Shown: piece after piece, positions 1,441 through 33,878 of the stretch
How the letters are laid out: every line of letters begins with the position of its first letter
Position numbering within the stretch: the first letter of the stretch is position 1
DNA from: a virus
Reading direction: 5' to 3' (one strand)
Virus record (IMG/VR): IMGVR_UViG_3300005337_000034
Coordinates: 1 to 38,406 of that record
DNA: 38,406 nucleotides
Made by a program: the position numbers and the translations under genes
Notes under the pieces: model-generated
What the model was told of the DNA's origin: nothing
The model's input: the letters and a program-made list of their open reading frames with translations, nothing else
Databases searched by the model: none

Positions 1441-1470
1441 TTGCCAGATTCCAATGCAATGTGGCAAAAT
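1441..1470 (+). promoter_or_regulatory. Putative promoter of the left structured RNA
   Basis: TTGCCA at 1441-1446, an 18-base spacer and CAAAAT at 1465-1470 look like a moderate sigma70 promoter. The first helix of the downstream RNA begins 15 bases after the -10 box. The homologous element on the other strand has a candidate promoter at nearly the same distance (14 bases), which is the best argument that it is real. TTGCCA/TGGCAA also form an inverted repeat here. Confidence 0.5.
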
Positions 1471-1476
1471 TCCTCT

Positions 1477-1592
1477 CGTTGATGTGACGGCGTCGACGAA
1501 ATCAGGAAGCCGATTCGGTTTCTGTGTTTCTAGGGTTGAATCCCACCTGGCCGTCACCAGTGAAGCGCAGAATCCCAATCGGCTTTTTTGCG
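1477..1592 (+). ncRNA. Structured early-arm small RNA, left copy (possible C4-type RNA)
   Basis: Helix S1 pairs TGACGGC (1485-1491) with GCCGTCA (1550-1556). Helix S2 pairs AAGCCGATT (1507-1515) with AATCGGCTT (1577-1585) and runs into six T residues, an intrinsic terminator. The arms interleave (S1, S2, S1', S2'), so they can form a pseudoknot. The 5' arm of S2 can instead pair locally (GAAGCCG 1506-1512 with CGGTTTC 1516-1522), giving a terminator/antiterminator choice. A short palindrome GGGTTGAATCCC lies at 1533-1544. A diverged copy at 34300-34184 (-) keeps the helices with different bases. Known C4 antisense RNAs of P1/P7 are the closest comparison I can name; identity is unproven. Confidence 0.7.
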
Positions 1593-1876
1593 TTTGCGCG
1601 GCACATCAACCGCACTCCGAGCGACATCAAGGGCCAGCCGGCCGCGCGGATAACAGGCTGATGCAAAGTCCCTGCGTAATGTGACTAGGGGGCAGTCGAA
1701 AGCAGCACATGCTTTTGAGGACATGGCGTAAAAGGTTGTCGGCGAAAGCCACTGGGGAGATTGGCCCACTTTGACGGGCAGCCATGGTAACGGACTTGCA
1801 TCACAGTGCTTAAGAACAAGAGAGTGTCAGGGGGACAACCTAACCCCTAGTCAAAGATTGAACCTATGGAGGAACA
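1593..1876 (+). promoter_or_regulatory. Conserved structured leader before recT, left copy
   Basis: No credible gene is present. Blocks align with 34183-33879 on the other strand: a GC-rich block around 1601-1657, then hairpins AAAGCA/TGCTTT (1699-1704/1710-1715), GGC-GAAA-GCC (1741-1750, a GNRA tetraloop), GCCC/GGGC (1764-1767/1776-1779) and GGGG/CCCC (1831-1834/1844-1847), the last just before the recT ribosome site. The corresponding right-copy helices have different bases but still pair. This looks like a long regulatory 5' leader transcribed by readthrough of the terminator at 1577-1589. Confidence 0.6.
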
Positions 1877-2611
1877 ATGAGCAATATCGTACCATTTCAG
1901 GAGCTTGAATCGATGTCTAGCTATATCGTTCGCTCCAAGCTCTTCGGGGCAAAAGACGAGTCTCAGGCCATGAGCTTGATGCTGCTGGCCCAGGCTGAAG
2001 GGCTTCATCCGATGACAGCGATTCAGGACTTCGACATCGTGCAGGGTCGGCCTGCGCGCAAAACGCATTCGATTCTGGCCCGTTTCCAAGCTGCAGGAGG
2101 AAAGGTAGCATGGGAAGAAATCACGCCGACGCGTGCTTGCGGCGTCTTCTCGCATGCGCAGGGCGGTTCGCTTAAAGTTGAATGGACTTTCGCCGATGCC
2201 CAAAAGGCCAATCTGACCGGAAAAGACAACTGGAAAAACTATCCCAAAGCTATGCTGCGCGCGCGCTGTATCGCCGAGGGCGTGCGCGCTGTGTTTCCAG
2301 GGGCTATCGGCGGTATGCTGACTGTGGAAGAGGCTCAGGATATGGCCCCGAGTCGCGGTGAGATTGATATCACTCCAGAAACGCCGGCCAAAAATATCGC
2401 GCCGACTCTGATTGATTGCACCGACGAGCATTTCCAAAACAATACAGAGGCCTGGCGCGCGATCATTCTAAGCAAGCGCAAGACACCGGCCGGTCTGATC
2501 GCTGTGCTGAGCACTAAGCTGATCTTGACCGAAGACCAGAAGCTGACCATCGACAGCTGGTCGCACGAAGAAGAAGCCATTGACAACAATAACGAGGAAC
2601 CACAGCAATGA
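1877..2611 (+). CDS. recT: RecT-family single-strand annealing protein
   Basis: The 244-residue product matches the RecT family of phage annealases, which coat and anneal single-stranded DNA. Recognisable features are the N-terminal MTAIQDFDIVQGRP region and the core block WKNYPKAMLRARCIAEGVR (about residues 117-135), followed by FPGAIGG and an acidic VEEA segment. GGAGGAACA just before the ATG is a strong ribosome site. The stop overlaps the start of the exonuclease gene (ATGA), the usual recombinase/nuclease pairing. The structured leader at 1441-1876 lies directly upstream, so expression is probably controlled there. Confidence 0.88.
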   Translation: MSNIVPFQELESMSSYIVRSKLFGAKDESQAMSLMLLAQAEGLHPMTAIQDFDIVQGRPARKTHSILARFQAAGGKVAWEEITPTRACGVFSHAQGGSLKVEWTFADAQKANLTGKDNWKNYPKAMLRARCIAEGVRAVFPGAIGGMLTVEEAQDMAPSRGEIDITPETPAKNIAPTLIDCTDEHFQNNTEAWRAIILSKRKTPAGLIAVLSTKLILTEDQKLTIDSWSHEEEAIDNNNEEPQQ

Positions 2612-4320
2612 TTACCCATGACCTGATTCAAGGCAGCCATGAATGGCTTACCTATCGCGCGAAATACTTCAATGCCAGCGATGCGCCGGCCATGCTGGGC
2701 TGTTCGGCCTACAAGTCGCGCTCTGACCTGATCGCCGAACTGGCTACCGGCTTGGCGGTTGAAGTCGATCCCGCTACGCAGCGGCGTTTCGATGACGGCC
2801 ACCGATACGAAGCGCTTGCGCGCCCTGTGGCTGAATCCATCATCGGCGAAGACCTATATCCTGTCGTAGGCTCCGAGGGCCGCTTCTCTGCCTCATTCGA
2901 CGGCCTGACGCTGGGCGAAGACACTGGCTTCGAGCACAAGTCACTGAACGACGAACTGCGAGCAGTCTTTGTCGACATCGCCACCATGAACCCGGAGCAC
3001 CAAGCTACCAGCGCCGGCGCTCTGCTGCCTAAGATGTACCGCGTCCAGATGGAACAGCAGTGCATGGTTTCTGGCGCCAGCCGCATCCTGTTCATGGCAT
3101 CGAAGTGGAACGGCGAGGAACTGGTAGAGGAATACCACTGCTGGTATGTTACAGACGCCGCCCTGCGTGCTGAAATCATTGCTGGCTGGGCGCAGCTGGA
3201 AATGGATGTCGCCGCCTATGTTCCGGCTGAGCCTGTGCAGAAGTTGGTGGCCGCTTCGTTTGAAACACTGCCGGCCATCGCGGTGCAGATCAAGGGCGAA
3301 GTCACCGCCAGTAACATGGGGGCTTTCAAGGAACGCCTATCGGAATACCTCGCCAGTGTCAAGACCGATCTGGTCACGGACCAGGACTTCGTAGACGCAG
3401 ACGCCGCAGCGAAAAACTGCGTCACTATCGAAAAGCGGCTGAGCGCTACCAAAGAGCAGGTGCTTGGACAAGTGGCCGACATCGACGCCATCGTGCGCGC
3501 GCTGGATGATGCGGCCGGCCAGGTGGCAAAGCTGCGCATCCTGCTTACCAAGGAAATCAAGGATAAGAAAGACCTGCTAAAAGCCGGAATTCTCACCAAG
3601 GCCCAGCAAGCATTGAAGGACCATGTAGCGGTTCTGGAAAAAGAAATCGCGCCGGTCACGCTGGTCTATCAGGCACGCGACTTCGCCGGCGTTATGAAAG
3701 GCCTGCGCACGATCAAGACGTTGCAGGATGCCGCCGACACTGAACTGGCCGCCGGCAAGATTACCGTCGATTCCCTGGCCGCCGGCATCCGCGCGCGTCA
3801 AGCTTGGTTCAAGGTCGAAGCAGTCGATTATGTCGGTCTTTTCGCTGACCTGCAGCAGATCATCCAGAAGCCTGACGACGACTTCAAGCTGATCGTCACC
3901 ACTCGCATAGCTACACAGAAGGCCGCCGACGACAAGCGGATCGAAGAAGCCAAGGCAGCCGCATTGGCCGCTGCTGCACCAGCGCCCCAGACCGACAGTG
4001 CAGCCATTGCTGACGCCATGATCGCGGAAGCCGTGATACCGCCGCCGGACATGCGCACAGTCATTACTGTGGAGTTGGAAGAAGTGCCAGAAATGGCGCC
4101 AATCACTCAGGAAGCCCCGCCATCGCTCAAGCTGGGCGAGATCAGTGGGCGCCTGGGCTTCACTGTTACAGCCGAATTCATGGCGAAGTTGGGCTTCGCG
4201 CCGGCAGCGACCGACAAGAACAGTAAGCTTTTCCACGAATCTGACTTCCCCAACATCTGCGCCGCGTTGCTGCGGCACATTGCCGAGGTACAGGCGAAGA
4301 AATTCACGGTGACGCTATGA
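2608..4320 (+). CDS. YqaJ-type (lambda-exonuclease-like) recombination nuclease
   Basis: The N-terminal 210 residues look like a YqaJ/RecE-type 5'-3' exonuclease: an opening QGSHEWLTYR block, a G-x3-E-x3-R helix near residues 64-72, SFDG with Asp98, then FEHKS with Glu109 and Lys111 as likely metal-binding and catalytic residues. The remaining 350 residues are helical and alanine-rich, with coiled-coil character and a DUF1351-like feel. At 570 residues it is longer than a bare YqaJ domain. It should make the single strands that the coupled RecT protein anneals. Confidence 0.85.
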   Translation: MITHDLIQGSHEWLTYRAKYFNASDAPAMLGCSAYKSRSDLIAELATGLAVEVDPATQRRFDDGHRYEALARPVAESIIGEDLYPVVGSEGRFSASFDGLTLGEDTGFEHKSLNDELRAVFVDIATMNPEHQATSAGALLPKMYRVQMEQQCMVSGASRILFMASKWNGEELVEEYHCWYVTDAALRAEIIAGWAQLEMDVAAYVPAEPVQKLVAASFETLPAIAVQIKGEVTASNMGAFKERLSEYLASVKTDLVTDQDFVDADAAAKNCVTIEKRLSATKEQVLGQVADIDAIVRALDDAAGQVAKLRILLTKEIKDKKDLLKAGILTKAQQALKDHVAVLEKEIAPVTLVYQARDFAGVMKGLRTIKTLQDAADTELAAGKITVDSLAAGIRARQAWFKVEAVDYVGLFADLQQIIQKPDDDFKLIVTTRIATQKAADDKRIEEAKAAALAAAAPAPQTDSAAIADAMIAEAVIPPPDMRTVITVELEEVPEMAPITQEAPPSLKLGEISGRLGFTVTAEFMAKLGFAPAATDKNSKLFHESDFPNICAALLRHIAEVQAKKFTVTL

Positions 4321-4508: not shown

Positions 4509-4612
4509 TTGTTGCATTATGCCTCAGCATGATTTACATTGGAGTTCTCCAAGCGGTTTAGCCGAACACCGTGCAAATAGCGAAGTTTGGTATTTCTTTT
4601 AAGGAAATTAAA

Positions 4613-5218
4613 ATGAGTGAACTGAAAACTGCAGCCGAACTGTCCGAGTACGATTTCATCGTCGTAATCGATGCTTCCGGCTCCATGGGTGAGCGCGATA
4701 TGGGCGGCAAGTCCCGCTGGGAATACATGCAAGAAACCGCTATGGCCTTCACCCGCGACCTGGAAGCGATCGACAGCGACGGCCTGGGCGTTGTGATGTT
4801 CTCGGGCGCCAACATCGAAAGCTTCGATGGCGTCACCACTGACAAGGTCAAGGAAATCTTCGCGAACCGTTCGCCGCGCGGCAGCACTCCGCTGGCTGAA
4901 GCACTGACCGCAGCCCTGAAGCTGGCCGGCAAATCCGACAAGAAGGACTTCATCATCGTCTTCACCGACGGCGTCCCGGACGACCAGTCCAAGGCAGCGA
5001 AGGTTATCATCGACCAAGCCAACAGCCAAGTAACCGACGATGCTCTGACCATCCTGTTCGTGCAAGTCGGCCATGACGCCGGCGCGGCGGCCTACCTGAA
5101 AACCCTGGACGACGATCTGACCGGCGCCAAGTTCGATATCGTCGATGCCAAGACCATCGACGAAGCCGAAAAGTTCCCGACCACCGCAGCGCTGATCGCG
5201 CACGCAATCAACGACTAA
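4613..5218 (+). CDS. von Willebrand factor A (VWA) domain protein
   Basis: The 201-residue product is almost entirely one VWA domain with a complete metal-ion-dependent adhesion site: DASGS (Asp20, Ser22, Ser24), Thr92 in the STPLAEAL segment, and Asp119 in FTDG. VWA domains bind partner proteins through a coordinated magnesium; no catalysis is expected. No signal peptide or transmembrane segment is visible, so it should act in the cytoplasm. AAGGAAA precedes the chosen ATG. It sits alone between the exonuclease block and two mini-genes, so its partner cannot be inferred from context. Confidence 0.85.
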   Translation: MSELKTAAELSEYDFIVVIDASGSMGERDMGGKSRWEYMQETAMAFTRDLEAIDSDGLGVVMFSGANIESFDGVTTDKVKEIFANRSPRGSTPLAEALTAALKLAGKSDKKDFIIVFTDGVPDDQSKAAKVIIDQANSQVTDDALTILFVQVGHDAGAAAYLKTLDDDLTGAKFDIVDAKTIDEAEKFPTTAALIAHAIND

Positions 5219-29469: not shown

Positions 29470-29543
29470 TGGAGCGGCTAAAGGGAATCGAACCCTTGTC
29501 CTCAGCTTGGAGGGCTGTGGCTCTGCCATTGAGCTATAGCGGC
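29470..29543 (-). tRNA. tRNA-Gly(TCC) with non-canonical C33
   Basis: The 74-nt minus-strand gene folds into a full cloverleaf: acceptor GCCGCTA/TAGCCGC with a C-C mismatch at 3-70, D stem GCTC/GAGC, anticodon stem with an A-A mismatch at its base, and T arm AAGGG-TTCGATT-CCCTT. It has discriminator T and encoded CCA. Anticodon TCC and U73 are glycine identity elements. The anticodon loop reads CCTCCAA, so position 33, almost always U, is C. It may be a decaying or a specialised tRNA. Confidence 0.85.
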
Positions 29544-32250: not shown

Positions 32251-32888
32251 TCCGCCTCCGGTTTCGGCAAAGCCTTCAGGGAGAAGCCGCGCAGCGCTTC
32301 CATGGCGCCCGGTGGCGGCGTGCTGTTTCCCAGCTGCGGCGCGGCGGCCGGCGCCCAGGTCGCGTTCAGCAGGCCCAGGCGGATGCCTTCATCACGAACG
32401 GCGTTCTGCGCCTCGATGCTGCCGGCCGGCGAGACCCAGTAGCGCGGCGGGCGGCGCGCCAGCTTCTCCTGCTCCACCAAACGATCGTAGGCAGCGCGAA
32501 AGGCCATGCGGGCGGCGTTCATGTCGGGACGCGGAATGTCCAGGAACTCGGCCGCCGCCGCCAGCGCGCAGGATGTGACCTGGTTCAGCAGGCCCGGCTC
32601 GGTTTCCAGCTTCGGCACCTGCGCCCAGGCTTCATCAGCGCCGATCCACTGAACCGGCTGGCGGCGCTCGACCTGCGCGCGGATATAGGAAGCATTGGGC
32701 CGCCACTTGCCATTGATCTTGTCGTTGATGTGGTCCACCAGCGCCTGCTTGATCTGGCTCAGCGTCAGATCGGCCAGCGCGGCGAACATCAAGTCCAGGC
32801 TGCCCTCGGTGTACTGCTCGCCCTGGCCGATCGTGTCGCGTGCATCCCGCATCACCTCGCGGAACTCGTTGAAGTCTCGGTTATCCAT
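32247..32888 (-). CDS. Putative replication-associated protein
   Basis: The 213-residue product has a helical N-terminal half with SLDLMFAALADLTLSQIKQALVDH and KWRPNASYIRAQVE, a pattern I associate with loader or organiser proteins in phage replication blocks. The second half is alanine-rich and ends in proline-rich tail. It is coupled to the methyltransferase and overlaps the 170-residue upstream gene by 8 bases. Assignment is tentative. Confidence 0.4.
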   Translation of the reverse strand: MDNRDFNEFREVMRDARDTIGQGEQYTEGSLDLMFAALADLTLSQIKQALVDHINDKINGKWRPNASYIRAQVERRQPVQWIGADEAWAQVPKLETEPGLLNQVTSCALAAAAEFLDIPRPDMNAARMAFRAAYDRLVEQEKLARRPPRYWVSPAGSIEAQNAVRDEGIRLGLLNATWAPAAAPQLGNSTPPPGAMEALRGFSLKALPKPEAE

Positions 32889-33393
32889 TTGCGATGTCCT
32901 CCACGGAATCGGCTGGCAGCCCCCAGCGCTGGCGACGCGCGGCGCGGTCGGCTTCTGGATCCTTCGCAGTCACCGTGACGGGGCGGCCGTTGCGCGAATC
33001 GAAACCGCGCGCGGTGCCGTTTTTGTCTTTCAAGCCGTACACGTCCAGCCAGCCGTGAAACGTGGACTGGTCCAGCACCGCGCCGGGCGAGTGGCCGTTG
33101 CGCATCAGCTCGGCCAGCTTGTCGATCAGCAGCTTTTGCGCGCGCTCCGTCGGCGACTTTTTCGCGGCGGCGCGCATGGCCAGGAAAGCGTCCCAGGCGT
33201 CCTGCGGGATCCAGTCGGGCAACGTCACCAGCGTGGGTGCAGTCTTGGCCTTGCGCTTCGGCTTTGCAGCCACCAGCGCATCGTAGGCGGCCAGAAGCTC
33301 GGCAAGGTCTATTCGACCAATTTCGATATAGTCGCGGGATTGGTTGCGTTCATCTGAAACCAGCCGGCGCAGCTCCATGTGGTCAGTGCTCAT
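32881..33393 (-). CDS. Putative phage replication protein, C-terminal-domain type
   Basis: The core block IPQDAWDAFLAMRAAAKKSPTERA with LIDKLAELMRNGHSPGAVLDQS (about 60-110) resembles the C-terminal helical module found on many phage replication initiators, here with only a short N-terminal region. At 170 residues it is smaller than a full initiator. The start overlaps the HNH stop (ATGA). A DNA-binding role is likely; the exact function is not certain. Confidence 0.5.
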   Translation of the reverse strand: MSTDHMELRRLVSDERNQSRDYIEIGRIDLAELLAAYDALVAAKPKRKAKTAPTLVTLPDWIPQDAWDAFLAMRAAAKKSPTERAQKLLIDKLAELMRNGHSPGAVLDQSTFHGWLDVYGLKDKNGTARGFDSRNGRPVTVTAKDPEADRAARRQRWGLPADSVEDIANG

Positions 33394-33878
33394 GACTTCT
33401 CCAGTTCCGGCATGTTGTTGCCGCGTTTTTTGTTGCAGGGTTCACAGGCCAGCACGCGGTTGTTTGCGTTGTCGAGGCCGCCACGGTCAAGCGGCACAAC
33501 GTGCTCGATGGTGGATGTGTTCAGGTCGATCTGGATACCGCACCAGTGGCAAGGAACCGTTTTGCGGCCCTTCATCATCTTGCGGCGGATGGCGCGGCTG
33601 TTGGTTGCGCGCTGGTCCTTGAGGTGCGCTGGTGCCACCTTCGGCTGCTCCTGCGACATTGCCACCGCCTGCGCCGGCGTCACGTTCTTGACGCCCTTGG
33701 TAGTCCGCGCCACGTAGGCTGTTCGCGCGGCTGACAGCGGGTAGTAGTTGACCAGCAGCGCGCCGTGAATCTTGTAGTGGCCATTGGTTGATCCTGGCGC
33801 CGGATATTCCAGCTTGACGCCAGCATCTCTGCAGAGTCGCTCTAATTCACGGACCCTGTTGAATTGCTCCATAGACAC
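33390..33878 (-). CDS. HNH endonuclease with HicA-like N-terminus
   Basis: GTG 33878 is preferred to ATG 33872 because GGGAGG lies seven bases upstream. The C-terminal half is an HNH nuclease: CxxC at 110-113, the EH pair 125-126 (His126 catalytic), Asn residues near 139-140, and CEPC at 145-148 binding zinc. Residues 8-60 look like a small double-strand-RNA-binding or HicA-like fold with GSTNGHYKI. It is the first gene after the right structured leader. HNH genes are common in phages as packaging helpers or free nucleases. Confidence 0.8.
   Translation of the reverse strand: MSMEQFNRVRELERLCRDAGVKLEYPAPGSTNGHYKIHGALLVNYYPLSAARTAYVARTTKGVKNVTPAQAVAMSQEQPKVAPAHLKDQRATNSRAIRRKMMKGRKTVPCHWCGIQIDLNTSTIEHVVPLDRGGLDNANNRVLACEPCNKKRGNNMPELEKS

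Follow-up and report, generated by a model that had tools for sequence, protein, structure and literature searches.

Paired promoter-pseudoknot units in the early arms of a phage genome very likely open a large structured RNA absent from Rfam

Structured RNAs of several hundred nucleotides are, to our knowledge, rare, and the phage examples are mostly without known function. GOLLD and ROOL are such large, structured, phage-associated RNAs, while the C4 antisense RNA is a short phage RNA with its own promoter near early or immunity genes, which pairs in trans with an antirepressor operon leader, and ColE1 RNA II is anchored at its promoter and has a 5′ strand that can choose between partners. 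The put RNA of phage HK022 binds the zinc-binding domain of the RNA polymerase β′ subunit and suppresses termination, with no dedicated protein known to us. The put RNA is about 70 nt long and consists of two stem-loops (PMC9378689). The 38,406-nt stretch of viral DNA analysed here (IMG/VR record IMGVR_UViG_3300005337_000034; hereafter the window) carries two matched units, one in each early arm, each of which is very likely, on comparison of sequences, the 5′ domain of a structured phage RNA of approximately 350–450 nt belonging to a class absent from Rfam. With HK022 putL and putR this RNA shares the presence of a structured RNA near the start of the early transcript, one per arm in the window and in record G018, and it may by analogy act on the polymerase that made it, but it differs in its length, its two pseudoknots, its internal U-tract and its 3′ domain. 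A put-like site had been proposed in the first-pass annotation of the window, and this holds for position, and perhaps for mechanism, as an analogy rather than as membership, given the size and two stem-loops of put; the occurrence of the unit in both early arms, there considered unusual, has a precedent in putL and putR. The RNA is much longer than C4, differs from GOLLD and ROOL in size and anatomy, and differs from ColE1 RNA II, with which it shares promoter anchoring and alternative partners for the 5′ strand, in that it occurs in phages, in paired copies and without evidence of priming. A C4 identity, also suggested previously, finds no support: neither unit matched the C4 model (RF01695) even at E-values up to 10, and no match was obtained across the whole window at the gathering score. 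Searches of the window and 17 relatives against all Rfam families, including GOLLD, ROOL, HEARO, group I and II introns, RNase P, tmRNA and ToxI, left the element unmatched at the gathering score. At E-values up to 10, the window units gave weak matches far below threshold, and permissive searches of twelve relatives gave weak, inconsistent sub-threshold ones; all of these are taken as chance.

Direct reading of the sequence confirmed that both units contain a promoter, interleaved helices S1 and S2, a hairpin, a T-run and the motif GCGTTT at the positions first described (Table 1). The predicted promoter-to-T-run transcript is 112 nt in both copies, and an independent promoter scan returned exactly the two sigma-70-type promoters listed. 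Pairing of the 3′ strand of the left S1 creates a pseudoknot with S2. The original description of the units was sound as far as it went, but overlooked helix P0, the helix S3 nested within S2 and the core that follows. The supposed palindrome GGGTT-x-AATCCC opposes T to T and is merely a short GGG/CCC hairpin, which is restricted to close relatives, different hairpins taking its place elsewhere. Using a descriptor that requires a minimum of 8 pairs in an S2 ahead of the T-run, a minimum of 6 in an S1 crossing S2 and a third helix (P0) spanning the T-run, the two window units scored 26 and 27, and scores of at least 26 were encountered 0.03 times per dinucleotide-shuffled window (300 shuffles). 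Chance similarity is excluded by these shuffles together with the own-partner tests reported below.

Table 1. Coordinates of the RNA elements in the two arms of the window and of the genes that follow them
Feature	Position	Strand	Remarks
Left promoter	1441-1470	+	-35 TTGCCA 1441-1446, 18-nt spacer, -10 CAAAAT 1465-1470
Left P0	5′ strand 1478-1486; 3′ strand (P0′) 1602-1610	+	5′ strand opens the RNA; 3′ strand after the T-run
Left S1	5′ strand 1484-1491; 3′ strand 1550-1557	+	5′ strand overlaps end of P0; own-partner pairing
Left S2	5′ strand 1507-1515; 3′ strand 1577-1585	+	Own-partner pairing
Left S3 (inside S2)	5′ strand 1520-1526; 3′ strand 1566-1572	+	
Left apical hairpin GGG..CCC	1533-1544	+	The former palindrome; sequence varies among relatives
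Left T-run	1584-1589	+	Terminator-like; direct reading
Left conserved core	1609-1659	+	ACCGCACTCCGAGCG..GCGCGGA; model R1 match 1595-1659, 51.9 bits
Left variable 3′ domain	1660-1860	+	Left/right alignment; stops just short of RecT gene at 1877
Genes led by left copy	RecT-like 1877-2611; RecE-like exonuclease 2608-4320	+	PHROGs
Right promoter	34336-34307	-	-35 TTGACG 34336-34331, 18-nt spacer, -10 TAGAGT 34312-34307
Right P0 and S1 5′ strand	34299-34286	-	Full 14 nt also pairs with 34179-34166
Right P0 3′ strand	34179-34166	-	Extended, repeating S1 3′ strand
Right S1	5′ strand 34293-34286; 3′ strand 34228-34221	-	Own-partner pairing
Right S2	5′ strand 34272-34264; 3′ strand 34200-34192	-	Own-partner pairing
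Right S3 (inside S2)	5′ strand 34256-34247; 3′ strand 34217-34208	-	
Right T-run	34193-34189	-	Direct reading
Right conserved core	34167-34117	-	Model R1 match 34181-34117, 64.5 bits
Right variable 3′ domain	34116-33890	-	Left/right alignment; stops just short of HNH gene
Genes led by right copy	HNH endonuclease 33390-33878; O-like replication protein 32881-33393	-	PHROGs

In an alignment of both copies, the similarity between left and right extends approximately 300 nt past the T-run, up to the next gene, and what had been viewed as a complete small RNA gene ending at the T-run is rather the 5′ domain of a longer RNA. Sequence comparison gives the order of its parts: the promoter, P0 at the 5′ end, the S1/S2(S3) pseudoknot, the U-tract over which P0 is closed, a core with a second small pseudoknot and a variable structured 3′ domain. 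P0 opens where transcription is inferred to start and, by spanning the T-run, closes the unit; its 3′ strand P0′ is complementary in cis to the 5′ end of the same RNA. In 44/51 units P0 is preceded at a constant distance by a TANNNT −10 element, against a background of 4 %, and the RNA thus very probably begins at P0, which places the left start at approximately 1477–1478. The pseudoknotted unit spans 84–163 nt to the T-run across the relatives, and the T-run, with a mean of 6.5 T per 8 positions in 52 units, is terminator-like in composition. Nevertheless, P0′ and the core beyond it are conserved, and P0 still pairs in L068 and L080 despite an insertion of approximately 110 nt, so that read-through must matter. 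This insertion, between the T-run and P0′, resembles a long hairpin and has related sequence at the same point in both; other insertions lie inside the 3′ domain of L046 and L048 (roughly 110–160 nt overall). The conserved stretch after P0 reads ACCGYACNCCGNRCG..AGCAAG-hairpin-GCGCGGAAG, and the pseudoknotted core is followed by 150–250 nt of variable structured 3′ domain. At least five unrelated-looking types of 3′ domain were observed behind the same 5′ domain and core, a variety across relatives which suggests exchangeable modules. In several units (the right unit of the window, L034, L037, L038, L107 and L110) the S1 partner is repeated in the downstream strand, making strand exchange possible, with weak support for such a repeat across all units (z = 3.4). 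Two candidate features were rejected, namely a T-loop at GGGTTnAATCCC, which is not conserved, and complementarity of ACCGTACTCC to 16S rRNA, for which the bases differ in other members.

Selection on RNA structure, first proposed from the two window copies, is strongly supported by the relatives. The stems retain complementarity among these, with the relatives of the RecT gene carrying units in which S1 and S2 have unrelated bases on an identical plan, together with P0. When each 5′ strand was compared with its own and every other unit's 3′ strand, own-partner pairing yielded z = 21.3 for S2, 18.1 for S1, 14.3 for P0 and 7.4 for H0, the helix that the 5′ strand of P0 can form locally instead and which has weaker support than P0, against 1.5, 0.8 and 0.2 for three control pairings, in 52 units which came from pattern matches and for which relatedness was partly controlled, the own-versus-other comparison being conservative for relatives. 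The same test gives no support to a local hairpin that rivals S2 in close relatives. Pairing of P0 and S1 stands at 96.9 % among the ten closest units, a value reached in 0/500 shuffles, with both sides changed in 7/13 pairs. The core helices, which include a helix of three pairs with a loop that itself pairs onward to form the second pseudoknot, are 92.4 % paired in 34 sequences versus 80.2 % when shuffled (covariation 0/500), while in the freshwater 3′ domain 94.8 % of cells are paired and compensatory changes occur in 11/38 pairs. Furthermore, G-U mismatches outnumber A-C mismatches (85 versus 28, p = 7e-8), from which the structure is that of RNA of the unit's sense strand; a structure at the DNA level, or of the other strand, is contradicted by this asymmetry.

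The RNA occurs in approximately 80 contigs of IMG/VR and in one phage whose record is annotated. Exact patterns drawn from the conserved stretch matched 68 IMG/VR stretches for the first and 15 for the second, where chance matches to the first 20-base pattern are expected, by our own estimate, at well under one, and nearly every match is immediately preceded by promoter, S1/S2, T-run and P0. Among 84,980 species genomes of bacteria and archaea, a single match to the first pattern (L116) was obtained and judged to be chance (13 bits, no unit), and no match to the RNA was found in the plasmid collection. A single record of the phage collection was recovered with the patterns, and was likewise the only one by blastn: MW202753, an uncultured phage from Manatee Spring. 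A 'hypothetical protein' (UOF81610.1) is annotated over the RNA in this record (L151, MW202753.1, 2972-3403) and is probably a mis-annotation of the RNA locus. The units at L010 (~2200-2470), L015 (~2480-2760) and L004 (~1560-1700) follow the promoter/S1/S2/T-run plan without the R1 core, that of L015 being built differently (TTCCG..CGGAA), and the family is probably wider than the search pattern used. Strong R1 core matches with no recognisable 5′ pseudoknot unit directly upstream occur in L057 (4516-4582, −) and L076 (3236-3300, −). No description of the RNA was found among the open-access papers searched.

The covariance model R1 located the core in 26/33 whole records, 23 of which hold a single copy once two chance matches were removed (second copies in G008 and G009, E 0.03–0.04, where the unit is absent). 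Two convincing divergent copies occur in the window (divergent when its ends are joined), G015 and G018. With the window genes assigned using PHROGs and those of G015 and G018 by reading translations against the window's, one copy in the window and G018 leads RecT and an exonuclease, the second lies ahead of an O-like replication gene, and a helix-turn-helix gene, NinB and NinG separate the two, as in lambda-like left and right arms, while the right copy of G015 leads a methylase and an O-like gene. In the other records the one copy lies amid recombination, replication, methylase or endonuclease genes, as judged from translations. In L038 the RNA is located between terS and terL, both recognised from translations alone. 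The RNA runs in the same direction as the following gene in nearly all lineages except that of L058 (L058, L059, L071, L074, L079, L099 and L102), where it is opposed to the genes on both sides. A gene reading as TerL is found approximately 4.9 kb downstream in L059, on the strand of the RNA.

The leading, if tentative, reading is that of a cis-acting, attenuator- or put-like leader on the early transcripts. S2 and the U-tract would form a built-in pause or terminator approximately 100 nt after the start. The local helix H0 and the S1:S1′ pseudoknot, in which S1 joins the loop of S2, would form first during transcription, with P0 and the core following after passage, and the outcome of folding would decide whether polymerase continues into the operons for RecT and replication. 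Once complete, the fold may remain with polymerase, as HK022 put RNA does. The left and right copies keep different S1 and S2 sequences, so that each would fold solely with itself. The paired arms and internal terminator are best fitted by a leader governing read-through into the early operons, which would represent RNA-only control of these operons well beyond HK022 put. Against a leader stand the opposed orientation in the L058 lineage, the single copy of most genomes in varying places, including between terS and terL, and the approximately five unrelated types of 3′ domain, which are hard to square with a simple attenuator.

Nearly as likely as a leader is a free-standing, trans-acting phage RNA, working, like GOLLD or ROOL, as an RNA-protein complex or RNA-only assembly, with its gene among the early genes by chance, the U-tract as a structural element or folding pause and the G-rich 3′ hairpin as the real end. 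The L058-type orientation, the predominance of single copies, the diverse gene neighbourhoods and the large multi-domain fold with its structured, variable 3′ domain all favour such an RNA, but against it stand the strong terminator-like U-tract inside 52 units, the agreement in direction with the following gene in nearly every other lineage and the divergent pair in three genomes. A free-standing RNA would constitute a new phage RNA machine. Somewhat less likely is a multi-domain machine of a new class, with a mechanism without described counterpart, in which a constant 5′ part, comprising the switchable, start-anchored P0/H0, the S1/S2 pseudoknot, the U-tract and the pseudoknotted core, would be joined to interchangeable 3′ domains and target the host transcription or replication apparatus. 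A role at a replication origin as primer or R-loop RNA, along the lines of ColE1 RNA II with its alternative 5′ pairings and G-rich 3′ end, appears improbable: the RNA adjoins replication and recombination genes, its 5′ strand has alternative partners and freshwater members have a G-rich end, but this end is mostly paired within the RNA and three genomes have two divergent copies. Least plausible of all is that the 112-nt promoter-to-T-run transcript is itself the functional product, as a C4-like small RNA acting by antisense pairing or protein binding, since, for all that promoter, compact fold and U-tract resemble a complete small-RNA gene, P0 spans the T-run and shows covariation, core and 3′ domain are both conserved and C4 is not matched.

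Regardless of its mode of action, the RNA is common in environmental phages; its start is defined, its helices can be tested and its paired copies are matched. Elsewhere in the window, the recombination arm encodes a von Willebrand factor A domain protein (4571-5218, +), which is unusual for a small phage, and a phage tRNA gene is located upstream of the terminase region (29473-29543, −).
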